A DNA stretch of 56,482 nt from Desulfonatronum sp. (GTDB taxonomy: Bacteria; Desulfobacterota; Desulfovibrionia; Desulfovibrionales; Desulfonatronaceae). The stretch covers positions 1 through 56,482 of the forward strand of contig DSBL01000008.1 in assembly GCA_011049455.1 (NCBI GenBank). Direction: 5' to 3'. Positions within the stretch are counted from its first letter, which is position 1. Each line of letters opens with the position of its first letter. Positions 1,451 to 18,635 of the stretch are shown one piece after another. The position numbers and the translations under genes were made by a program. Below the pieces are notes generated by a model that saw only the letters and a list, made by a program, of their open reading frames with translations, had not been told where the DNA came from and did not search any database.

Positions 1451-2797
1451 ATGGATTACCGTATCATCCTGCCGGAAAAAGACATGCCCAAACAATGGTT
1501 CAACATCCTGCCGGACCTCTCGCCTCCTCTTGCCCCGCCGCTGGATCCGGCCACCGGCCAGCCTTTGGGTCCGGAAAAACTGGCGACCATTTTCCCCATG
1601 GCCGTGATCGAACAGGAAATGTCCCCTCACCGCTGGATTGATATTCCTCAACCGGTCTGGGACATCTATCGCCTGTACCGTCCCACGCCCCTGGTCCGCG
1701 CCCACCGACTGGAGGCTGCCCTGGGCACCAAGGCCCGTATCTACTACAAAAACGAATCCCTCTCACCGGCCGGATCCCACAAGCCGAACACCGCTATTGC
1801 CCAGGCGTATTACAACAAGATGGAGGGAGTGCGTCGGCTGACCACGGAAACCGGAGCCGGACAATGGGGCACTGCACTGTCCTTTGCCTGCAAAATGTTC
1901 GGCATGCAGTGCACGGTGTATATGGTCCGGTGCAGCTACGAGCAAAAACCCTACCGCGGCGTGCTGATCCGCTCCTATGGCGCCGAAGTTTTCCCCTCAC
2001 CGTCGCCGCGCACCGCTGCCGGCAGGGCCGTACTGGCTGAAAACCCCGATTCCGGCGGCAGTCTGGGCCTGGCCATTTCCGAAGCCGTGGAGGATGCAGC
2101 CACCCATGAAGATGCCAAATACTCCCTGGGCAGCGTGCTCAACCACGTGCTTCTGCATCAAACCATCACCGGCTTGGAAACACAAAAGCAGCTGGCCATG
2201 GCCGGAGAAAAACCCGACGTGCTCGTGGGCTGTGTGGGAGGGGGCAGCAATTTCGGCGGCCTGATTCTGCCTTTTGTCCCCCAAAAAATGGCTGGAAAGG
2301 GACCCCGCCTCGTGGCCGTGGAACCCAAGGCCTGCCCGACCCTGACCAAGGGTGAGTTTCGGTACGACTACGGCGACATGGCCAAAATGACTCCGCTGTT
2401 GAAAATGCACACCCTGGGTTCCGGCTATTTTCCACCGCCCATCCATGCCGGGGGCTTGCGCTACCACGGCGATGCTCCGATCCTGTCCCATCTTGTGAAC
2501 CAGGGACTGGTGGAATCCACGTCGTATTTTCAAACCGAGGTGTTCGAGGCGGCCCGGTTCTTTCTGCAAAATGAAGGGTTTCTGCCCGCTCCGGAAACCG
2601 CCCACGCCGTCAAGGCGGTCATGGATGTGGCCCGAAAGAGCGATCCAGGCACGGTCATCGTCTTTCTATACTCCGGCCACGGTCTGCTGGACCTGGGCGC
2701 TTACGATGCCTTCAACCAGGGCAACCTCAAGGACGACGAATTCGCCGAGGAGGACATCAGGAAAGCCTTGGCGTCCTGTCCCCAAGTCGGTTTTTGA
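1451..2797 (+). CDS. trpB: TrpB2-type tryptophan synthase beta chain
   Basis: The 448-residue PLP enzyme belongs to the long TrpB2 branch, not the TrpA-partnered TrpB1 branch. The Schiff-base lysine sits in [11 protein letters not shown], followed by [11 protein letters not shown], and the phosphate-binding glycine loop is [11 protein letters not shown]. It condenses indole with serine to give tryptophan. TrpB2 enzymes often lack a TrpA partner and may salvage free indole, and no trpA is in the window. The ATG at 1451 is chosen because a purine-rich GGGGGAA lies about 8 bases upstream. In-frame ATGs at 1349 and 1435 are less well supported. The indolepyruvate oxidoreductase at 34804-37238 is another aromatic-metabolism enzyme here. 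Confidence 0.93.
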
Positions 2798-2847
2798 TTT
2801 TCCGGATCATTCAACATACATGCAAAAGGAGGGCGCAAACCACCCTT

Positions 2848-4596
2848 ATGTTCCGCATTCGCCGCATCCATGACGCCGCATGGCCCGGTGATGCCCGGGT
2901 CATCTCCCAGGTCCAGGGTATTTTGCGGGAGCAATTCCCCCTGCTGGCCTCCGAGGATGTCGAAAAACTGCCGGAACAACTCCGAAATCCTCTGAAATTC
3001 AGGTTTCGCAGCATTCTTTACGTCGCTGAGGGCGCAAACAGCCGTCTGAAGGGTTTTGCCTTGTTTATGCACGCCCCTGACCTGCATTTCGGTTATCTGG
3101 ATTATGTCTCCGCAGCCAAGCTGCAGACCGGCGCAGGCGTGGGCGGAGCCTTGTACACCCGGGTTCGTGAAGAGGCCAAAGCACTTGAGCTGACGGGCCT
3201 ATTCTTCGAGTGCCTGCCCGACGAGCCGGCTCTTTGCCCCGACCCGATGACCCTGAAACAGAACAAGGCTCGGTTGCGTTTTTACGAACGCTTCGGAGCC
3301 AGGCCCATCGTGGGCACGGCCTATGAAACGCCGCTTACGCCCGAAAGCACCTGTCCTCCGTATTTGGTCTTCGATGCCCTGGACCAGGGCAAGCCCCTGC
3401 GCCGCAGGGACGCCCAAAAAGCCGTCAGGGCTATTTTGGAGCGCAAATACGCCGAATGCTGCCCTCCGAACTATGTGGACATGGTGGTGCACTCCTTTGC
3501 CGACGACCCGGTCCGTCTTCGGGAACCGAGGTATGTCCTGACCGCAAAGCACCAAGCATCCGCGGTCCGGCCTGTCCTGTACACGGATAAGACGATCGCC
3601 TTGGTCGTCAACGACCAGCACGACATTCATCACGTTCCTGAACGCGGATATGTGCAGGCCCCGGTGCGCATCCGCTCCATTCTGAAGGACATTGAACCGT
3701 TGGGATACTTCCAACCCGTTTCCGTGCGTCACTTTGGCGAGGAGCACATTCTGGCCGTGCATGATCGCAAACTGGTGGAATACCTGAAACGGGCCACGGC
3801 CCTGCTGGGACCCGGGGAATCGGTATACCCGTACGTCTTTCCGATTCGCAACGCGGCCCGTCCGCCCAAGGAACTGCCTGTGCGCGCCGGATACTTCTGC
3901 ATCGACACCTTCACGCCCATCACTCGCAACGCCTTCCTGGCGGCCAAACGGGCCGTGGACTGCGCCCTGACCGCGGTCCAGTGCCTGCGCGAGGAATACC
4001 GCGTGGCCTACGCCCTGGTCAGGCCACCGGGGCATCATGCCGAGCGCAGGGTCTTCGGCGGGTTTTGCTATTTCAACTCCGCGGCAGTGGCCGCGCATTG
4101 CATGAGCGCGCTGGGCCGAGTGGCCGTGCTGGACATCGACTACCACCATGGCAACGGCACCCAGGACATCTTCTATCGCCGCGCGGACGTGCTCACCGTG
4201 TCCTTGCACGGCCATCCGCGCTTCGCCTACCCGTACTTCAGCGGCTATGAAGAAGAAAAAGGTGAGGGGGAGGGCGAGGGGTATAATATGAACATCCCCC
4301 TGTCGGAGCAGGTGGACGGCGCCGCCTACCGCGAGGCCTTGGCCAGGGCTTTGCGCCGCATAATCCGGTTCGCGCCGCGAATCTTGATCATCGCCCTGGG
4401 CCTGGATCCGGCCAAGGGCGATCCCACGGGCTCGTGGAGTTTGACGGCCAAGGATTTTGAACGCAACGGCCGGATGCTCGGAGAATTGCGTCTGCCCACA
4501 TTGATAATCCAGGAAGGCGGCTACCGCATCCGCTCCCTGGGCACCAACGCCAAGTATTTTTTTCAGGGCTTTGCCGCCGGTGCCTTTGCCCGGTAA
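2848..4596 (+). CDS. GNAT acetyltransferase fused to acetylpolyamine/HDAC-type deacetylase
   Basis: The 582-residue protein has two domains. Residues about 1-175 form a GNAT domain with an acetyl-CoA loop QTGAGVGGAL (residues 93-102). Residues about 240-582 form a class II HDAC-like amidohydrolase with the catalytic His dyad H396-H397 (RPPGHHAE), zinc ligands D431 and H433 (DIDYHHGNGT), a third Asp near 520-525 and catalytic Y559 (EGGY). The YPYFSGYEEE...GEGEGEGYN segment resembles acetylpolyamine amidohydrolases more than protein deacetylases. Coupling acetylation and deacetylation in one chain suggests polyamine or lysine acetyl turnover; the substrate is inferred. The start at 2848 follows an AAGGAGGG with rather long spacing, and an ATG at 2794 overlapping trpB2 is the alternative. 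Confidence 0.88.
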   Translation: MFRIRRIHDAAWPGDARVISQVQGILREQFPLLASEDVEKLPEQLRNPLKFRFRSILYVAEGANSRLKGFALFMHAPDLHFGYLDYVSAAKLQTGAGVGGALYTRVREEAKALELTGLFFECLPDEPALCPDPMTLKQNKARLRFYERFGARPIVGTAYETPLTPESTCPPYLVFDALDQGKPLRRRDAQKAVRAILERKYAECCPPNYVDMVVHSFADDPVRLREPRYVLTAKHQASAVRPVLYTDKTIALVVNDQHDIHHVPERGYVQAPVRIRSILKDIEPLGYFQPVSVRHFGEEHILAVHDRKLVEYLKRATALLGPGESVYPYVFPIRNAARPPKELPVRAGYFCIDTFTPITRNAFLAAKRAVDCALTAVQCLREEYRVAYALVRPPGHHAERRVFGGFCYFNSAAVAAHCMSALGRVAVLDIDYHHGNGTQDIFYRRADVLTVSLHGHPRFAYPYFSGYEEEKGEGEGEGYNMNIPLSEQVDGAAYREALARALRRIIRFAPRILIIALGLDPAKGDPTGSWSLTAKDFERNGRMLGELRLPTLIIQEGGYRIRSLGTNAKYFFQGFAAGAFAR

Positions 4597-9518: not shown

Positions 9519-10979
9519 CTAGAGACACGGCGCCTCCTCGCCCGTCATATAGGCGTGCATGGCCCTGGCCGCCTGCTTCCCCTGGCCCATGGCGCTGATC
9601 ACTGTGGCCGCGCCGGAGACGATGTCCCCGCCGGCAAACACGCCCGGCTTGGAGGTCATCATGTTTTTTTTGTCCGTGACAATGGTCCCGCGCTTGCCCA
9701 CCTCGATACCCGGAGAGGTTCTGGGCACAAGGGGGTTGGGCCGGTTGCCCACGGCCACGATAACTGTGTCCGCCTCTACTACGAATTCACTGCCAGGCAC
9801 TTCCACCGGTCTTCTGCGACCGGAGACGTCCGGTTTTCCCAATTCCATGCGCAGGCACTTCACGCCTGTAACCCGGTTTTGGTCATCCACAAGAATGCGT
9901 TTGGGCGCGGTCAAGAAATTCAGAGCGACCCCCTCCTCCTGGGCGTGATGCACCTCTTCGGCCCGGGCCGGCAACTCCTCCAGGCTGCGACGGTAGACAA
10001 TGGTCGATTCCGCACCCAGGCGCAGGGCCGTGCGGGCTGAATCCATGGCCACATTGCCCCCGCCCACGGTCACGGCCCGTTGCGGACGGATCGGCGCGGT
10101 GGCGTATTTCGGAAAATCATAGGCCTTCATCAGGTTCACACGGGTCAGAAATTCGTTGGCTGAATATACTCCGACGGCATTTTCCCCAGGAATGTGCAAA
10201 AAAATGGGCAATCCGGCGCCCGTGCCCACGAACACGGCGTCATACCCGTCCTCCAGAAGCTGATCCACGGTTCGGGTCATGCCGATGGCCGTATCCGTGC
10301 GGATTTCCACGCCGAGTTTTTTCAAATTGTTGATCTCGTACTGAACGATCTCTTTGGGCAGGCGGAATTGGGGAATGCCGTACATGAGCACCCCGCCGGC
10401 CAAGTGCAGGGCCTCGAAGACCACCACCTTGTGCCCCCAACGGGCCAAGTCTCCGGCCACGGTGATGCCCGAAGGACCGGCCCCGACAACAGCCGCCTTC
10501 CTGCCTGTGGGATCGACGGCGCAGGCCAACTGCTGATGCCCGGCTTCGCGAGCGTAATCCGCGGCAAAACGCTCCAACCGGCCGATGGCCACGGGATCGT
10601 CCTTCTTGCCCAGGATGCAACCGGCCTCGCACTGGCTTTCCTGGGGACAGACCCGGCCGCACACCGCAGGCAGGGCGTTTTGCTCCTTGAGCTTTTCCAG
10701 GGCTTCCACAAAATGCCCCTTGGCGATCAAGGCGACAAAGGCCGGGATGTTGATATTCACCGGACATCCGGCAACACAGCCGGGCTTTTTGCACTGTAAA
10801 CAGCGGGAAGCTTCCAGTCTTGCGGTTTCCTCGGAATAGCCCAGGGGCACCTCTTCGAAATTGAAACGTCTGCGCCTGGGGTCCTGCTCCGGCATGGGTT
10901 GGCGGGGGATTGCCGGACGCTTGGGACGTTTTGCTGGTGACTTGCCGGGTACAGTTTTCATTCGTGTTTTTTTGTCCAT
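9519..10979 (-). CDS. NfnB/GltD-type NADPH-binding flavoprotein
   Basis: The 486-residue protein is a GltD-like FAD/NAD(P)-dependent oxidoreductase. N-terminal cysteines (ASRCLQCKKPGCVAGCPVNINIP and VCPQESQCEAGCILG) bind two [4Fe-4S] clusters. The FAD-binding dinucleotide loop is VVGAGPSGITVAGDL and the NAD(P) loop VGGGNVAMDSARTA. Directly after the NfnA-domain fusion this is better read as NfnB of the NADH-dependent ferredoxin:NADP+ oxidoreductase than as glutamate synthase small subunit, since no gltB is present. The ATG at 10979 has GGGAGG five bases upstream; an ATG five codons earlier would overlap the preceding gene. Confidence 0.88.
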   Translation of the reverse strand: MDKKTRMKTVPGKSPAKRPKRPAIPRQPMPEQDPRRRRFNFEEVPLGYSEETARLEASRCLQCKKPGCVAGCPVNINIPAFVALIAKGHFVEALEKLKEQNALPAVCGRVCPQESQCEAGCILGKKDDPVAIGRLERFAADYAREAGHQQLACAVDPTGRKAAVVGAGPSGITVAGDLARWGHKVVVFEALHLAGGVLMYGIPQFRLPKEIVQYEINNLKKLGVEIRTDTAIGMTRTVDQLLEDGYDAVFVGTGAGLPIFLHIPGENAVGVYSANEFLTRVNLMKAYDFPKYATAPIRPQRAVTVGGGNVAMDSARTALRLGAESTIVYRRSLEELPARAEEVHHAQEEGVALNFLTAPKRILVDDQNRVTGVKCLRMELGKPDVSGRRRPVEVPGSEFVVEADTVIVAVGNRPNPLVPRTSPGIEVGKRGTIVTDKKNMMTSKPGVFAGGDIVSGAATVISAMGQGKQAARAMHAYMTGEEAPCL

Positions 10980-10981
10980 TG

Positions 10982-13489
10982 CTACCTCCCGCACCCGCGG
11001 CCTTGGCAGGTCGTCCCCGGAAACATCAGGGCGTTCAGGTCCACGGTCTGGGGCAAGGCTTCCACTTCCTCCCGGGCATACGCGTTCTTGCGGCAGGCCA
11101 GCTCGTCCCAGTCCACGCCATGGGCGTCGAAAAACGGTCCGTCAATGCAGGCGAACTTGGTTTCCTCGTGCACGGAAACCCGGCAGGCCCCGCACATCCC
11201 GGTGCCGTCGACCATGATCGGATTCAGGGCTACAAAGGTGGGGACATTCCAAGGCTTGGTCTGCTCGGCGACCATACGCATCATGAAGGTGCAGCCCATG
11301 GCGATGAACATATCCACCTGCCCCTGCTGGTCGACGATCTGTTGAAAAACCTCCTGCACCCCGCCGAGCGTGCCCCGGCTGCCGTCCTTGGTGGCCACGC
11401 GCACCTCATGGCTCACCGTGCGCAGCTCTTCCTCCCAGAAAAGCAGATAGGCGCTGGCCGCCTCGATCACGCTGATCACCCGGTTGCCGGTCTCGCGCAG
11501 GGCTCGGGCCAGAGGCAGAATTCCGCCGATCCCGTAGCACCCCCCGCCCAGAACCACGGTTCCCTTCTTTTCAATGGGGAAGGCGTTGCCCAGCGGTCCG
11601 CTGACATGGGCCAGACGATCACCCTTCGTCAAGGAGACCAGTTCCCGGCTGGAACGGCCCACCTCCTCGATGATCAGGCTGATGCTCCCATCCTTCGCAT
11701 CCCAGTCGGCCAGGGTGAAGGGCGTTCGTTCCGAGGTTTCCCTGGCCATCAGGATCACGAACTGGCCGGGTTTGGCATAAGCCGCCACTTGAGGAGCCTT
11801 GATTCGGAGCAGATGCATGTTCGGCACCAGCTCGCGTTTTTCCAGCAATGCAAAGCCGTCAGCCGCGTCACTCTTCTCTGACAACGAAGCTGCGGCAGGC
11901 AGGCCGAAGGCCGTCAGTGCCGGGACCAGGTCAGCGGTGCGATGCCCCCGGAAAAAGGCCGGCACGCGGCGCACATCGTGGCGCGGTCCGCCCTTGAAGG
12001 CCTTTGGCGCTCGGTCGTTCCCCACTGCTGCGCTGATCTCCGCAAGGGAGTCAAAAGCCAAGGCTTTCAGTCCCAGTCTCTGGCCCAGGGCCCGCAAGAT
12101 TTCCCATTCCGGTCTGGCCATGCCCGGCGCGCGGCTGGTTTTCACCAGGGTCTTGACCCGACCGGCGGCTGTACGAAAGGTGCCGGCTGTTTCGAAAAGC
12201 AGGGCAGCGGGCAGAAGAACGTCGGCCCGCTCCTGGACCGGCGAAAGCAGGCCGTCGATGATCAGAAGAAAGCCCAGGCCGGCCAATTGTTCTTCATCCA
12301 GAAAGTTTCCGCCTAAAATGAGGCCGGTGACGTTTTTGTCCTTGATCCCTGCCAGCCATTTGGGCAGAGGCTGCTTTCGACCGGCGGGCACCGTGGGAAT
12401 GACGGCGATTTTCGCTCCTAAAGCTCGAGCCAGCCGACGATACAGGAAACGATCCTCCCTCGACGTGGCCTGACTAACCAGAATACCCAGAGATCCTGAA
12501 TGGTTGCGCAATCCATCAGCTGCCGCGTCCAGGGCCGAGTCCCAATCCACGGCAAAGGGTTTTCCGTTGTCCTTGATGGCCGGACGCAACAAGCGGACCG
12601 GCGCGTTGACGATTTGGGCGCAGCCGAACCGGCCCAAAGCGCACAGGCTGGCCTCGGGTTCAAATGCGGTCATGGCCGTGGAAACGAGCTGCCCGCCCTT
12701 GGTATAAGCCGTCAAAGAACATCCCTCGGGACAGAGAATACAGGTCGACACCTCGCGGGCATCCGGACGTCCCTGCCACCTGGCGAAGCGGTCCGACAGC
12801 GTGCCTGTGGGACAGATGTCGATGCAGGAACCGCAAAACGTGCACCCGGAGTGGACGTGGCTCTTGTTGAACGCCGTGCCCACCCTGGCCTGCTTGCCCC
12901 GATTGATGATGCTGATGGCCGGTTTGCCGTGAATCTTTTCGCAAATCCGCCAGCACCGGGCGCAAAGGATGCACAGGTTGTAGTCCCGATCCATGAAGGG
13001 ATCGTCGCGCTCCAGATTATGCGCGGCGTACAGCGTGGGCAGACGCAGATCCCGCTGCCCGGCTTGCAGAGCCATGGACCGTAGAGCACACTCCTCCCTG
13101 TTGCTGCAAAACCCGCAGCGCGTGGTCCGCCCGGCCTTTGTCGGCCGGGGCCGCAAAGCCTCGCAAGCCTTGCGGTGCACGCAGACCAGACAACTGTTGG
13201 GATGACCGGAAAGCATCATCTCCAGGGTCCGCCTCCGCAGCGTCTCCAGCTCCGGGGAACGGGTTCTCACCTGCATGCCTTCGACCGCGGGCGTGGTACA
13301 AGACGTGGGATACCCGCGCACCCCCTCGATTTCCACGATGCACATTCGGCAGGCCCCGTACGGGCTCAAGTCCTTGTGGTCGCAGATGGTGGGAATGGGG
13401 ATGTTGGCCTGCCTGGCGGCCTGGAGCACCGTGCTTCCCGCCTTTGCCTCCACGTCTTTGCCGTCAATGGTCAAATTGATCACAGCCAT
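10982..13489 (-). CDS. NuoG-like Fe-S subunit fused to NfnA
   Basis: The 835-residue fusion begins like NuoG/HydA: [2Fe-2S] cysteines C36, C47, C50 and C64; a His-Cys3 site H96, C100, C103 and C109; and two ferredoxin clusters C173-C183 and C216-C226. A molybdopterin-oxidoreductase-like region (about 247-490, with CILCPEGC) follows; it is much shortened and probably vestigial. From about 550 the sequence is NfnA: an FAD domain with RTPFTLADWD, an NAD loop GGGCYGIGG and the [2Fe-2S] ligand set around GTGMCGACR (C766, C769, C781). An extra Cys triplet C125, C128, C134 lies between clusters. The ATG at 13489 fits the ferredoxin fold start. NfnB follows two bases after the stop. Confidence 0.85.
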   Translation of the reverse strand: MAVINLTIDGKDVEAKAGSTVLQAARQANIPIPTICDHKDLSPYGACRMCIVEIEGVRGYPTSCTTPAVEGMQVRTRSPELETLRRRTLEMMLSGHPNSCLVCVHRKACEALRPRPTKAGRTTRCGFCSNREECALRSMALQAGQRDLRLPTLYAAHNLERDDPFMDRDYNLCILCARCWRICEKIHGKPAISIINRGKQARVGTAFNKSHVHSGCTFCGSCIDICPTGTLSDRFARWQGRPDAREVSTCILCPEGCSLTAYTKGGQLVSTAMTAFEPEASLCALGRFGCAQIVNAPVRLLRPAIKDNGKPFAVDWDSALDAAADGLRNHSGSLGILVSQATSREDRFLYRRLARALGAKIAVIPTVPAGRKQPLPKWLAGIKDKNVTGLILGGNFLDEEQLAGLGFLLIIDGLLSPVQERADVLLPAALLFETAGTFRTAAGRVKTLVKTSRAPGMARPEWEILRALGQRLGLKALAFDSLAEISAAVGNDRAPKAFKGGPRHDVRRVPAFFRGHRTADLVPALTAFGLPAAASLSEKSDAADGFALLEKRELVPNMHLLRIKAPQVAAYAKPGQFVILMARETSERTPFTLADWDAKDGSISLIIEEVGRSSRELVSLTKGDRLAHVSGPLGNAFPIEKKGTVVLGGGCYGIGGILPLARALRETGNRVISVIEAASAYLLFWEEELRTVSHEVRVATKDGSRGTLGGVQEVFQQIVDQQGQVDMFIAMGCTFMMRMVAEQTKPWNVPTFVALNPIMVDGTGMCGACRVSVHEETKFACIDGPFFDAHGVDWDELACRKNAYAREEVEALPQTVDLNALMFPGTTCQGRGCGR

Positions 13490-13494
13490 GGTCT

Positions 13495-15351
13495 TCACTC
13501 CACGATCACCGCGTTGAACTTGCACGCCTGGCGGCAGGCCCCGCAACGGATACACAAATCAAAATCAATGCGGTGCGGCTTTTTCTTTTTTCCGGAAACG
13601 GCTCCCACCGGGCAGGCCTTGGCGCAGGCCATGCACCCGGTGCAGAGTTTTGGATCTATCCTGAAGCGGATCAATGCCCGGCAGACTCCGGCCGGACACT
13701 TGCGGTCCTTGATATGGGCCAGGTATTCGTCCATAAAGGAGTCCAGGGTGGTCAGGGCCGGATTCGGAGCGGTCTGGCCCAGGCCGCACAGGGAAGCCTT
13801 TTTCATGGTTTCGCCGATCTTGCGGATCGACTCCAGGTCCTCCACGCTGCCTTTGCCTTCGGTAATGGCCGTGAGAATGCGCAGCAAATGCTGGGTGCCC
13901 ATGCGGCACGGAACGCATTTACCGCAGGACTCGTTTTCCGTGAAACCGAGAAAATACTTGGCCACATCCACCATGCAGGACTCATCGTCAATGACGATCA
14001 TCCCTCCGGAACCCATGATCGAGCCTACCTGGGCCAGATGCTCATAGTCCACGGGCAGGTCTAAATGCTTGGCCGGCACGCAGCCGCCGGAAGGCCCTCC
14101 GGTCTGCACGGCCTTGAAGCCCTTTCCGTCGAGCACGCCGCCGCCGATGTCCTCGATGATGGTTCGCAGGCTGATGCCCATGGGCACTTCGATCAGCCCG
14201 GTGCGGGTGATTTTGCCGGCCAGGGAGAAGGTTTTGGTGCCCTTGCTCTTCTCCGTGCCGATGCCCGCGTACCACTGCCCGCCCTTTTCCATGATCGCCG
14301 AGACAGCGGCCAGGGTTTCCACGTTGTTGATGTTCGTGGGCTTGCCGAAAAGACCGGAGACGGCCGGGAACGGCGGTCGGGAACGAGGCATGCCCCGCTT
14401 GCCCTCAATGCTTTGCATCAGGGAGGTTTCCTCTCCGCAGACGAACGCGCCGGCCCCTTTTTTGATTGTGATTTCAAAAGCAAAAGGCGAGCCCAAAATT
14501 TTCCTGCCCAGGAGCCTTTTCTCCCGCATCTGTTGGATGGCTTTTTGCAGACGCTCGATGGCCAGGGGATACTCGGCCCGGCAATAGACATAGCCATGGG
14601 TCGCGCCGATGGCGTATCCCGCGATGAGCAGCCCCTCCAGCACGGCATGCGGGTCGCCCTCCAGCACGGAGCGGTCCATGAACGCGCCCGGATCACCCTC
14701 GTCAGCATTGCAGATCACGTACTTGATCTTTCCTGCGGACTTGCGGGCAAATCCCCATTTCAAGCCCGTGGGGAATCCGGCCCCACCCCGACCACGCAAT
14801 CCGGACGCCTTGATCTCCTCGATCACGGCATCGGAGTCCATGCCCAAGGCCCGGGCAAACCCGGAATAGCCGCCCCGGGCGATGTAATGATGGATATTCG
14901 TGGGGTCGACGATCCCGCAATTGCGCACCACCACCCGGAGCTGGTGGCGGATCATGGGCAGTTCCTGAAACAGGGGCAGATCCTCCACAGGAGGACCTTC
15001 CATCATGCAAACGGCGTGGTTGAACACTGGGCGTCCTCCCACCAGATGCTCGCGCACCAGGTCCGGGACCATGTCCCCCCTCACCCCCTGGTACAACACC
15101 CGGCCGCCTCCCGGCCCTCGAATTTCCACCAGGGGCTCGGCATAACACATGCCCAGGCAGCCCACCTCATGGATATGCACGTCGTCCAAGGCCGGATCTC
15201 CCGCGCACGCCTCCCGGAAGGCCCGCAACACGTCCAGGGCTCCGGCGGCCCGACCGCAGGTGGCTGACCCGACCAGCACCCTCGGGGCGTCCGGACGCGC
15301 AAAGCGTTCCCACGATTGCCGCGACTGTTGCTTAATGTCGGTGAAATTCAT
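13495..15351 (-). CDS. NuoF/HndC/HydB-type NADH-binding flavoprotein
   Basis: The 618-residue protein has the long HndC/HydB layout. A thioredoxin-like [2Fe-2S] domain (C32, C65, C69) is followed by the NuoF FMN/NADH core with GRGGAGFPTG (187-196) and CNADEGDPGAF (214-224). A [4Fe-4S] site at ESCGKCVPCR plus C522 comes next, and two C-terminal ferredoxin clusters lie at C570-C580 and C600-C610. It oxidises or reduces NAD(H) in the cytoplasm and passes electrons through its Fe-S chain. Its start overlaps the NuoE stop by ATGA, and only five bases separate its stop from the NuoG-NfnA start, so the three subunits are almost certainly one complex. Confidence 0.93.
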   Translation of the reverse strand: MNFTDIKQQSRQSWERFARPDAPRVLVGSATCGRAAGALDVLRAFREACAGDPALDDVHIHEVGCLGMCYAEPLVEIRGPGGGRVLYQGVRGDMVPDLVREHLVGGRPVFNHAVCMMEGPPVEDLPLFQELPMIRHQLRVVVRNCGIVDPTNIHHYIARGGYSGFARALGMDSDAVIEEIKASGLRGRGGAGFPTGLKWGFARKSAGKIKYVICNADEGDPGAFMDRSVLEGDPHAVLEGLLIAGYAIGATHGYVYCRAEYPLAIERLQKAIQQMREKRLLGRKILGSPFAFEITIKKGAGAFVCGEETSLMQSIEGKRGMPRSRPPFPAVSGLFGKPTNINNVETLAAVSAIMEKGGQWYAGIGTEKSKGTKTFSLAGKITRTGLIEVPMGISLRTIIEDIGGGVLDGKGFKAVQTGGPSGGCVPAKHLDLPVDYEHLAQVGSIMGSGGMIVIDDESCMVDVAKYFLGFTENESCGKCVPCRMGTQHLLRILTAITEGKGSVEDLESIRKIGETMKKASLCGLGQTAPNPALTTLDSFMDEYLAHIKDRKCPAGVCRALIRFRIDPKLCTGCMACAKACPVGAVSGKKKKPHRIDFDLCIRCGACRQACKFNAVIVE

Positions 15352-15812
15352 TCCAGTCCCTCGATCAATTTTTCGATTTTGCGCGCGCTCATGCGTCCGT
15401 AGACCTTGTCGTCCACCACCACCACCGGGGGCAAGGCGCAGGAGCCGAAACAGGCCACCCGTTCAAGGCTGAAGTTTCCGTCTTCCGTGGTCTCGCCGGG
15501 AAAGATGCCGATCTTGCGCACAATGGCCTCCAAGACCTGGCCGCCCCCGCGCACATGGCAAGCCGTGCCTTGACAGACCTTGATCCGGTGGCGGCCCGGC
15601 GGATGGAAACGGAACTGGGCATAGAACGTGGCCACGCCGTAAACGTCGTTCTCCGAAAGGTGAAGATGTTCAGCGACCATGTGAAGAGCCTCTGGAGAGA
15701 GGCAGGACATCCTCTCTTGGATGTCCTGGAGAATGGGGATCAGGTTGTCCCGCTTTTGGCCGTGGGCCTTGAGAACGGCATTGATGGCTTTTCTGGCCTT
15801 GCGTGCTTGCAT
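15348..15812 (-). CDS. NuoE/HndA-type [2Fe-2S] subunit
   Basis: The protein (154 residues from the chosen start) is the thioredoxin-like 24-kDa subunit of NADH-dehydrogenase/hydrogenase diaphorase modules. Conserved blocks are VYGVATFYAQFRF, VCQGTACHVRGG and CFGSC, which supply the four cysteines of the [2Fe-2S] cluster. It partners the NuoF-like protein encoded next, with an ATGA overlap. The ATG at 15812 is preferred because GGAG lies six bases upstream; ATGs at 15848 and 15866 would add 12 to 18 residues. It is the first gene of the minus-strand redox operon. Confidence 0.93.
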   Translation of the reverse strand: MQARKARKAINAVLKAHGQKRDNLIPILQDIQERMSCLSPEALHMVAEHLHLSENDVYGVATFYAQFRFHPPGRHRIKVCQGTACHVRGGGQVLEAIVRKIGIFPGETTEDGNFSLERVACFGSCALPPVVVVDDKVYGRMSARKIEKLIEGLE

Positions 15813-15885
15813 GGGGCGCTCCGTTACGTGGGGGATGTGTTGCTCCATTCTGAGCGTTCGACGCAATTCTACGTATTCTATTCTC

Positions 15886-15913: not shown

Positions 15914-16052
15914 TACTCGTATCATTTTGCCTCCGTCACCCCAAAATACCATTCTCCATGTGAACATGGGCCTTTGACCCGTGCGGACAACCACAAACAA
16001 AGACGCGCACATTTGGTTGACGGATCATCCCGGACGGCCTCATACTCGGGCC

Positions 16053-18635
16053 ATGCGCACGGCCCATCACGGCGGAAACGTCTGGCGTCTGGCCCGGCAA
16101 TTGAGATGCCGGCCCGAAGAGATCCTGGACTTCTCGGCCAGCATCAACCCCTATGGCCCGCCCTTCTGGCTGAACACACTGCTCGCCGAAGCTTCCGAAA
16201 CGTTGCGTCACTATCCGGACCCGGACTGCCATGACCTGCTCCAGGCCGCTGCAGGGCACTACCGCGTTCAGCTTGACGAACTGGTGGCGGACAACGGCAC
16301 CGCCGAGATCATGCACCGGCTGGTTCCGCTTCTGGGCCTGACCCGGGCCGTGGTGCCCGTGCCGTCTTACGGCGACTATGAACAAGTCTGCGTTTTGAAC
16401 AACATTACTGTCCAGCGGATGGCCCTTTGTCCGAAAAACGGTTTTGCCCTGGATTGGGATCAATTACACGCCAGCCTTGCCCAGCCCGCCCTGGTCTTTC
16501 TGGGCCAACCCAACAATCCGACAGGCCAAATTTTCACAGCCGAGACATTGCGCCGAACCGCTCTGGCGCATCCCCAAAGCTGCTTCATCGTGGACGAGGC
16601 CTTTGCGGACTTCGCGCCGGACCTGGAACGCCTGACCGAAAACCGGCCGCCCAATGTTGCGGTGCTCCTGTCTTTGACCAAGTTTTACGCCCTGCCAGGG
16701 CTGCGCATCGGCATGGCGGCAATGGACGCCCAACTGGCACGGCGTTACAAGAAACATTGCCCCGCCTGGTCCGTGAACACCCTGGCCCAGGCGGCCGGGA
16801 CGCGGTGCATGGACGACGAGGTTTTTCGCTGCCTCACTCGTGAACGGATAACAACCGAAGCTCAACGATTGCGGCAACGCATGGAGCATCTGCCCCGGCT
16901 GCGCGTCTTTCCTTCGCATGCCAACTTTCTGCTCTGCCAAACCCTTTCATCTGATCTCAACGCGCCCATCCTGGCCCAAAAACTGCTGCAGAAGCGCATC
17001 GCCATCCGGGCTTGTCACAATTTCATCGGCCTGGATCAGCGTTATTTTCGCGTGGCCGTGCGCCTGCCCGAGGAGAATGACCTGCTCTGCGAAGCACTGG
17101 AAGGGATTCTTTGTCCTGCCAAAACCATACACCGTGCTAAGCGCGCCACCCCGGCCCTGATGCTCCAAGGCACCTGCTCCAACGCAGGCAAGAGCCTGCT
17201 CGTAGCGGCCCTGTGCCGCATCCTGCGCCAGGACGGCTTTTCCCCGGCGCCGTTCAAGGCCCAGAACATGGCCCTCAATTCCGCGGTCACCCCGGACGGC
17301 GGGGAAATCGGCCGGGCCCAGGCCCTGCAGGCCCAGGCATGTGGTTTGGAACCGGACCGCCGGATGAACCCGATCCTGCTCAAGCCCGATTCCGAGACCG
17401 GCTCCCAGGTCGTTGTCCTGGGCCGGCCCCGGGGCAACATGGACGTGGGGGCCTACATCAGGGCCAAGGAGGAACTGCGGAGCTTGGTTCTGGAAGCCTA
17501 CGACGCCCTGGCGTCCGAGCACGGCGTGATGGTTTTGGAAGGAGCCGGCAGCCCGGCGGAAATCAACCTGAAAAGCCACGATCTGGTGAACATGGCCATG
17601 GCTCGTCACGCCCGCGCCGCCGTGCTTCTGGTTGGCGACATTGACCGGGGCGGGGTGTTCGCGGCCCTGACCGGGACCCTGGACCTGCTTGATGCGTGGG
17701 AGCGCGAGCTGGTACGCGGCCTGGTGATCAACAAGTTTCGCGGCCGTCGTTCCCTGCTGGACCCGGCCTTGGAGTGGATCACCCAGCGCGCGGGCAAGCC
17801 GGTGCTGGGCGTTGTTCCGCATATCCCGGACCTGGACCTGCCCGAGGAAGACTCGGTCGCTTTCAAGCAGGGCGGCTTGTATCACCGCAAAAACGGCCCC
17901 GCCGAGCTGGACGTGGTCTGCTTGGATTTCCCGCATATTTCCAACTTCACGGACCTGGACCCCCTGGCAAGGGAGCCGGACGTGGCCCTGCGTTTGGTAC
18001 GGCAAGTCCAGGACCTGGGCCGGCCGGACCTGCTGATCCTGCCCGGGACGAAGAATGTTTTTGCGGATCTGCTCTTTTTGCGCGAACGCGGCCTGGACGC
18101 GGCCATATGCGACTTGGCCCGCTCTCAAGCAACGCACATCGTGGGCATCTGCGGTGGCCTTCAACTGCTGGGCCGAACCGTCAGCGACCCGCACGAACTG
18201 GAATCATCAAGCGCCGAAGAGGTGCAGGGCCTGGCCATTCTCCCGATTCGCACCACGCTTGAGCGGAATAAGACCCTTTGCCGGACCAAGGCGGCGCACT
18301 TGCCTTCCGGCCTGACCCTTTCAGGCTATGAAATACATCACGGACGCACCGACCTGGAAGGCCCGGGGCTGGAAGTCGTATTCCGCACGGAGGACGACCG
18401 CTTCATCGGGTGCTCCCTGCCAGGCGGCAACGTCTGGGGCACGTATCTGCACGGCGTGTTTGACGACGACGCGTTTCGCCGCCACGTGTTGAACACCGTC
18501 CGGGAACGCAAGGGGCTTGCGCCGCTGGCGTCTTGCGTGGTTCGCGACGTGGAGGCGGGCCTGGACCGGTTGGCCGACATCGTCCGCGCTCATCTGGACT
18601 TGGACCGTATCTATGATTTTTTGGGAGTTCGATAA
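16053..18635 (+). CDS. CobD-CobQ fusion: threonine-phosphate decarboxylase plus cobyric acid synthase
   Basis: This is one reading frame of 860 residues (884 if the GTG at 15981 is used). The N-terminal ~370 residues are a PLP-dependent HisC/CobD-type enzyme with HHGGN, DFSASINPYGPP and the Schiff-base lysine in LTKFYALPGLRIG. The C-terminal ~500 residues are CobQ: LMLQGTCSNAGKS (P-loop), PFKAQNMALNS, and a glutamine amidotransferase domain with the Cys nucleophile in GICGGLQLLG. Thus aminopropanol-phosphate supply and corrin-ring amidation in cobalamin synthesis are joined in one chain. The start at 16053 gives the usual CobD N-terminus, although no good ribosome site is visible. The stop overlaps the zupT ATG. 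Confidence 0.9.
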   Translation: MRTAHHGGNVWRLARQLRCRPEEILDFSASINPYGPPFWLNTLLAEASETLRHYPDPDCHDLLQAAAGHYRVQLDELVADNGTAEIMHRLVPLLGLTRAVVPVPSYGDYEQVCVLNNITVQRMALCPKNGFALDWDQLHASLAQPALVFLGQPNNPTGQIFTAETLRRTALAHPQSCFIVDEAFADFAPDLERLTENRPPNVAVLLSLTKFYALPGLRIGMAAMDAQLARRYKKHCPAWSVNTLAQAAGTRCMDDEVFRCLTRERITTEAQRLRQRMEHLPRLRVFPSHANFLLCQTLSSDLNAPILAQKLLQKRIAIRACHNFIGLDQRYFRVAVRLPEENDLLCEALEGILCPAKTIHRAKRATPALMLQGTCSNAGKSLLVAALCRILRQDGFSPAPFKAQNMALNSAVTPDGGEIGRAQALQAQACGLEPDRRMNPILLKPDSETGSQVVVLGRPRGNMDVGAYIRAKEELRSLVLEAYDALASEHGVMVLEGAGSPAEINLKSHDLVNMAMARHARAAVLLVGDIDRGGVFAALTGTLDLLDAWERELVRGLVINKFRGRRSLLDPALEWITQRAGKPVLGVVPHIPDLDLPEEDSVAFKQGGLYHRKNGPAELDVVCLDFPHISNFTDLDPLAREPDVALRLVRQVQDLGRPDLLILPGTKNVFADLLFLRERGLDAAICDLARSQATHIVGICGGLQLLGRTVSDPHELESSSAEEVQGLAILPIRTTLERNKTLCRTKAAHLPSGLTLSGYEIHHGRTDLEGPGLEVVFRTEDDRFIGCSLPGGNVWGTYLHGVFDDDAFRRHVLNTVRERKGLAPLASCVVRDVEAGLDRLADIVRAHLDLDRIYDFLGVR

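Follow-up and report, generated by a model that had tools for sequence, protein, structure and literature searches.

Organization of the locus

The window analyzed here, a 56,482-nucleotide stretch of a Desulfonatronum sp. contig, carries on its minus strand an operon of four genes in the order BfuC/HydC, BfuB/HydB, NuoG-NfnA and NfnB, which overlap or nearly abut one another. The first gene (15348..15866) encodes a BfuC/HydC/StnA- and NuoE-like protein of 172 aa of the thioredoxin-like [2Fe-2S] type (PF01257, 167 bits) and overlaps the BfuB gene by 4 bp. The second (13495..15351) encodes a BfuB/HydB/StnB- and NuoF-like protein of 618 aa that is composed of a thioredoxin-like N-terminus, an FMN/NADH domain, an NADH_4Fe-4S domain and a C-terminal, ferredoxin-like domain with CPAGVC and two [4Fe-4S] motifs. 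Its sequence motifs comprise CTGCMACAKACP, CIRCGACRQAC, SCGKC and CPAGVC, and its closest PDB chains are 7t2r_B, 9bov_B and 8oh5_B. Its match to the bifurcating HydB/StnB proteins (7t2r_B, 8oh5_B) is full-length and extends to the two C-terminal [4Fe-4S] motifs, which are considered a hallmark of bifurcation (Schut et al., PMC9304861). Besides this BfuB, the genome contains one weaker Complex1_51K protein of 435 aa.

The third gene, labeled P0001 (13489..10982), starts with an ATG at 13489, 5 bp past the stop of the BfuB gene, and ends with a stop codon at 10984-10982, giving a reading frame of 835 aa with no internal stops. The fourth (9519..10994, with an alternative ATG possible at 10979) is a separate gene for an NfnB/GltD-like protein of 491 aa. 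At the motif level, this NfnB and its relatives share all eight cluster cysteines, the arginine of the FRLP motif and the NADP-binding YRR.

Across 13 compared loci, only BfuC, BfuB, NuoG-NfnA and NfnB are conserved around the fusion, and no membrane Nuo genes occur among the conserved neighbors. An HmcB/HybA-like ferredoxin with a Tat leader (9404-8403) and a small membrane protein (8485-7943) lie downstream of the operon, also on the minus strand (together 9404-7943). They were considered as extra subunits and rejected, as no homologue was found in the relatives with flanking sequence, including one that is 79% identical. Elsewhere in the window, an 884-aa chain in which a CobD-like aminotransferase is fused to cobyric acid synthase CobQ (15981-18635, plus strand) is divergent from the operon, and a 600-aa ORF (2794-4596, plus strand) ends in a histone-deacetylase-type hydrolase domain and has an N-terminal half with no Pfam match.

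The sequences display the features of the Bfu (BfuABC/HydABC) family, namely the BfuB domain set, a thioredoxin-like BfuC with [2Fe-2S] and a BfuA with 2Fe-2S and 4Fe-4S domains. A complex I NuoG was ruled out by the BfuB/BfuC type and the neighboring genes. Judged by this gene content, P0001 belongs with the HydABC/Bfu electron-bifurcating complexes and not with complex I.

Domain architecture of the fused chain

P0001 (10982..13489, minus strand) is composed of a NuoG/HydA-like (BfuA) half, residues 1-490 (12020..13489), and an NfnA-like half, residues 546-815 (11045..11854). The NuoG half contains ligand motifs for a [2Fe-2S] cluster (C36, C47, C50 and C64), a His-Cys3-region motif (H96, C100, C103 and C109) followed by further cysteines at C125, C128 and C134, eight ferredoxin-type cysteines within residues 173-226 that account for two [4Fe-4S] clusters, and N7-type ligands (C250, C253, C257 and C283). 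The NfnA half contains the [2Fe-2S] ligands D761, C766, C769 and C781. Pfam assigns Fer2_4, NADH-G_4Fe-4S_3, Fer4_Nqo3, a split and partial Molybdopterin domain and DHODB_Fe-S_bind. By PDB sequence matching, the N-terminal half corresponds to the alpha subunit of R. capsulatus formate dehydrogenase (NuoG/Fdh-alpha) over residues 1-357 and 402-474, and the C-terminal half to Pyrococcus furiosus NfnI beta over residues 546-807. These matches, together with the uninterrupted ORF, confirm the initial annotation of NuoG-type clusters and NfnA within a single chain. The proposed shortening of the molybdopterin-like middle was likewise borne out, since P0001 lacks about 300 central residues of R. capsulatus Fdh alpha; its C-terminal part is absent as well.

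An AF2 model of residues 1-360, built on a 62-sequence alignment, reached a pLDDT of 86 and displays a HydA/Fdh/NuoG fold, with 7t30_A, the HydA of NiFe-HydABCSL, as best structural match. The least confident part of this model is the loop described below, in which residues 117-125 fall under pLDDT 50. The first AF2 model, covering the whole chain with 15 sequences, stayed under pLDDT 50 for residues 113-241 and was disregarded for those residues.

A sequence error or frameshift joining two separate genes had been named as a possible threat to the fusion. It is ruled out by 17 distinct homologues from many independent genomes, all fused at the identical joint and forming a single clade. They originate from the Desulfonatronum-like genus of the window, Desulfobulbaceae, Phycisphaerales, Omnitrophota and others.

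A conserved insertion in the His-Cys3 site

The His-Cys3 site of P0001 contains an insertion of exactly 25 residues (101-125; 13115..13189, minus strand), which together with C128 and C134 creates a second CxxCx5C. The motif H-x3-C-x2-C-x5-C-x15-C-x2-C-x5-C thereby spans 39 residues and is identical in all 41 fused or NfnA-linked carriers examined, whereas the single-type NuoG motif, H-x3-C-x2-C-x5-C, spans 14. The three additional cysteines that accompany the insertion are thus invariant in the 41 aligned relatives, and the concern that close homologues might lack them does not hold. Their identity does need revision. The initial annotation had designated C125, C128 and C134 as the added CxxCx5C, but the joint alignment of 62 sequences places the canonical His-Cys3 ligands at H96, C100, C128 and C134, so that C103, C109 and C125 are probably the added residues.

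The presence of the cysteine triplet coincides with that of NfnA in the locus. When loci with at least 3 kb of downstream sequence or with a fused chain were counted, NfnA accompanied 38 of 39 triplet-bearing NuoG proteins and none of the 57 without the triplet, a count that is biased in that part of the loci were found with a query containing NfnA. The split was the same among loci retrieved by searching with only the NuoG half. On the tree, the trait and its linkage to NfnA changed about once, so that the counts do not represent many independent events and the association is one of linkage by descent.

The position of the insertion can be compared with Stn, in which the GltD domain of StnC occupies residues 102-565 and electrons travel from FAD over C7, C6, C5, C4 and C3 into StnB (PMC10482914). 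StnC residues 1-102 align with P0001 residues 1-102 and StnC residues 564-803 with P0001 residues 124-357; PDB chain 9bov_A aligns with a similar gap. By this alignment, the NADPH-binding GltD domain of StnC is inserted exactly where P0001 carries its 25-residue loop. Mainly because the NADPH module of Stn enters BfuA at this position, we infer that the loop probably marks the NfnB docking and electron-entry or relay site.

The extra cysteines could alternatively form a structural zinc knuckle instead of an Fe-S cluster, a sub-question that is compatible with a Stn-like function of the complex. A zinc site is known on the BfuB/StnB linker (PMC10482914), and the extra cysteines number just three: a family-wide search for a fourth ligand yielded no invariant candidate, position 115 being Cys in 3 of 41 sequences. 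The CxxCx5C spacing nevertheless mirrors the motif of the Fe-S ligands at this site, and the cysteines lie at the electron-entry position of Stn. We therefore consider zinc a minority option, though one to be taken seriously.

Other variants of this region were observed. A group of NuoG-like proteins with lengths around 376 aa (373-408; loci L154-L159, L162, L164, L169, L170, L173, L175 and L176) does not match the His-Cys3 pattern; the members included in the joint alignment mostly have Gly for His and an insertion at this point without extra cysteines, which represents a different remodeling of the site. In Dehalococcoidia, NfnB-NuoG fusions with the double Cys-triplet motif (L061:7569-9470 and L072:1671-3875) provide a third arrangement of the same parts, and the one in L061 adjoins a second triplet-bearing NuoG. 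Two deltaproteobacterial MAG chromosomes (L057 and L063) encode BfuC and a triplet-bearing NuoG, truncated in L063, with no NfnA downstream; these are either broken operons or assembly faults.

The NAD site of the NfnA half

The initial annotation described the C-terminal half as a full NfnA, which applies to its FAD and [2Fe-2S] motifs but not to its NAD-binding motifs. In P0001 the NAD(H) pocket motifs are altered to GGGCYGIG, EA, KDGS and GCTFMM. Across the Bfu-linked NfnA proteins examined, GGGxGIA is replaced by GGCYGIG, GAR by EAx, TDDGS, somewhat variably, by TKDGS or TSDGS, and GPxxMM by GCTxMM or GCTQML, while the FAD motif and the [2Fe-2S] ligands (one Asp and three Cys) are preserved. 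The stand-alone NfnA proteins of the order, to which the NfnA half is about 40-49% identical, retain the usual motif forms. Pfam NAD_binding_1 (PF00175) scores above the cut-off in five of five stand-alone NfnA proteins and in none of five Bfu-linked ones, which gave no match even at E-values up to 5. The normal NAD(H)-binding signature thus appears lost from Bfu-linked NfnA, a lost Pfam signature not being proof of lost NAD binding. NfnII/Xfn offers a parallel, as its NfnA-type subunit is reported to be without NAD activity (PMC6405883; also PMC6085437).

Distribution and phylogeny

All eight genomes of the genus of the window contain the fusion. In a sample of 150 genomes of the order, it was found in no others, and nearly all of these others encode a stand-alone NfnA. 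In seven of the eight genus genomes the fused chain is the sole P0001 match at E ≤ 1e-30, so that these have no clear stand-alone NfnA, and PntB was found in none of the eight. A phylum-wide sample of 395 genomes added two with the fusion and about a dozen with an unfused version. Named carriers of the fusion include Desulfobulbus rhabdoformis, Desulfogranum japonicum (two copies), Phycisphaerales and Omnitrophota.

Unfused relatives occur in two gene orders: BfuC-NuoG-NfnA-NfnB-BfuB, with a NuoG of 554 aa often about 10 bp from NfnA, and BfuC-BfuB-NuoG-NfnA-NfnB. The fused chains are monophyletic (support 100/100 in the NuoG tree and 100/99 in the NfnA tree) and lie close to the 554-aa group, and both trees are alike in shape. 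This pattern fits a single fusion event, after shortening of the domain, with subsequent spread across phyla. A plasmid search was negative. Because unfused relatives have NuoG, NfnA and NfnB side by side in one operon with Bfu genes, the fusion is best placed as a late step within a wider Bfu-plus-NfnAB family.

NfnAB and Bfu might still be functionally separate enzymes that are merely co-encoded, in which case the fusion and the extra cysteines would have a role in assembly or stability alone, and NAD(H) would bind in another manner to the altered NfnA pocket. Structural roles of extra clusters do occur, as clusters C1 and C2 in the FdhF-like domain of StnC serve assembly and not transfer (PMC10482914). 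We regard this as very unlikely, given that the NAD signature is gone from the linked NfnA proteins examined and retained in stand-alone ones, and that the agreement of the NuoG and NfnA trees points to functional coupling.

Comparison with known bifurcating systems

Anaerobes balance NADH, NADPH and ferredoxin mainly through Nfn, Stn and HydABC. The inputs with which Bfu cores have been described include hydrogenase, formate dehydrogenase and GltD. Stn has been stated to be without NfnA, and Nfn to be without HydBC (PMC10482914). In the openly accessible literature we found no account of a NuoG-NfnA fusion, of a Desulfonatronum Nfn or of a Bfu core combined with a whole NfnAB. In Schut et al. 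(PMC9304861), 17 BfuB clades are unassigned, and the clade of the BfuB described here may be among them.

The BfuB/BfuC core type is shared with StnABC of Sporomusa ovata (PDB 8oh5/8oh9) and with Nfn-Bfu of Thermococcus sibiricus. The operon further resembles Stn in its NuoG-like BfuA and, as predicted here, in the use of NADP(H) as third substrate via a GltD/NfnB-type flavoprotein and in electron entry at the same BfuA point. Three features of Stn are absent. In Stn, GltD forms an insertion within BfuA, an NfnA homologue is missing and the NfnB-like FAD does not bifurcate, with five of eight cluster ligands left in StnC (PMC7483475), whereas the operon has NfnB as a separate chain with eight of eight cysteines, an NfnA that is fused to BfuA and a shorter molybdopterin remnant.

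With NfnAB (NfnI; PDB 5jca, 4ylf), the operon shares NfnA and NfnB homologues with FAD, [2Fe-2S] and two [4Fe-4S] motifs; at the motif level, the b-FAD region, the arginine, both [4Fe-4S] clusters and the NADP site of NfnB are present, as are the [2Fe-2S] and FAD sites of NfnA. It differs in its replaced NfnA pocket motifs, that is, in lacking the normal NAD(H)-binding domain of NfnA, and in the coupling to Bfu subunits. NfnII/Xfn of Pyrococcus furiosus (PDB 5vj7) also has an NfnA-type subunit with an altered NAD region, but the altered motifs differ, as Xfn retains GP, and the Xfn sources mention no Bfu partner. HydABC and NiFe-HydABCSL (PDB 8a6t, 7t2r) share the BfuBC core and the closest NuoG-like fold, whereas the present complex would have neither H-cluster nor NiFe subunits and NfnAB in their role. 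Two bifurcating modules joined together have precedents in the Bam-Bfu benzoyl-CoA reductase (PMC9304861) and the ANME-1 HdrA-NfnB (PMC9012536), with HdrA in place of NfnA and other substrates.

Proposed function

On balance, we consider it probable that the operon encodes one cytoplasmic, Stn-like, NADPH-linked bifurcating transhydrogenase that contains a whole NfnAB in which the NAD exit on the NfnA side is closed. The fusion, the gene content, the motifs, the co-occurrence, the phylogeny and the alignment at the insertion site are read directly from the sequences; that the four proteins form a complex, which cofactors they hold, and the route, direction and activity of electron transfer are predictions. 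BfuC, BfuB, the NuoG-NfnA chain and NfnB would form a single Bfu-type bifurcating complex with NADP(H) as third substrate, working like Stn but with a complete NfnAB module in place of the GltD domain inserted in BfuA. NADPH would exchange electrons at the FAD of NfnB, whose [4Fe-4S] clusters would connect to the NuoG half at the His-Cys3 site. The 25-residue loop with its three extra cysteines would act there as docking and relay site, replacing the covalent GltD insertion of StnC. From the His-Cys3 site, electrons would reach the FMN of BfuB via the [2Fe-2S] and additional clusters, and this FMN would in turn exchange with NAD(H) and ferredoxin. The NfnA half, which is fused to NuoG, keeps its FAD and [2Fe-2S] motifs, but its normal NAD site appears lost, so that NAD chemistry would be restricted to BfuB. 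In the cell, such a complex would probably produce NADPH from NADH and reduced ferredoxin, reversibly, in place of Nfn.

The initial annotation had suggested that a fused chain would hard-wire electron flow between its two halves. This remains plausible in light of the co-occurrence of loop and NfnA and of the location of the loop at the StnC insertion point; with the normal NAD(H) signature missing, however, the chain is not simply a working NfnA joined to NuoG.

The complete set of NfnB cluster cysteines and the preserved NfnA FAD and [2Fe-2S] motifs would also fit a second working bifurcation site. The FAD of NfnB would then still bifurcate, placing two sites in series with the FMN-FeS site of Bfu: a low-potential branch would run over the NfnB [4Fe-4S] clusters to ferredoxin or the Bfu core, and a high-potential branch over the NfnA [2Fe-2S] and FAD to NuoG instead of NAD+. 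This gains from the retention of the b-FAD-tuning arginine in NfnB, from a known Nfn with a non-NAD high-potential acceptor (NfnII/Xfn; PMC6405883, PMC6085437) and from the serial bifurcation proposed for Bam-Bfu with HdrA (PMC9304861). The homologous FAD of Stn is nevertheless non-bifurcating when coupled to a Bfu core (PMC10482914), and two sites would have no obvious need, for which reasons we think it improbable. A fuller form seems to us a doubtful proposition too; in it, the NfnA flavin would no longer meet NAD, and its high-potential electrons would stay within the enzyme and move to an Fe-S chain that is entered via a new cysteine-rich cluster.

The single Stn-like transhydrogenase that we prefer would, if correct, explain the NADPH supply of the sulfate reducers of this genus, which are without a clear stand-alone Nfn and without PntB. 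A further question is which site still bifurcates once a bifurcating flavoenzyme has been coupled to another bifurcating core. The Bfu-NfnAB family makes this testable, because the NfnA NAD site and the putative NfnB docking loop have changed along the same lineage.

A deep sub-clade of fused loci (L178:8107-11226, minus strand; L051:4753-7905, plus strand) encodes BfuB proteins of 1039-1050 aa that lack the C-terminal two-[4Fe-4S] motif and contain an additional GltD/NfnB-like domain (about 44% identity), so that two NADPH modules may be present in the corresponding complexes. L153, L160 and L163 contain long BfuB-GltD ORFs of a similar kind.
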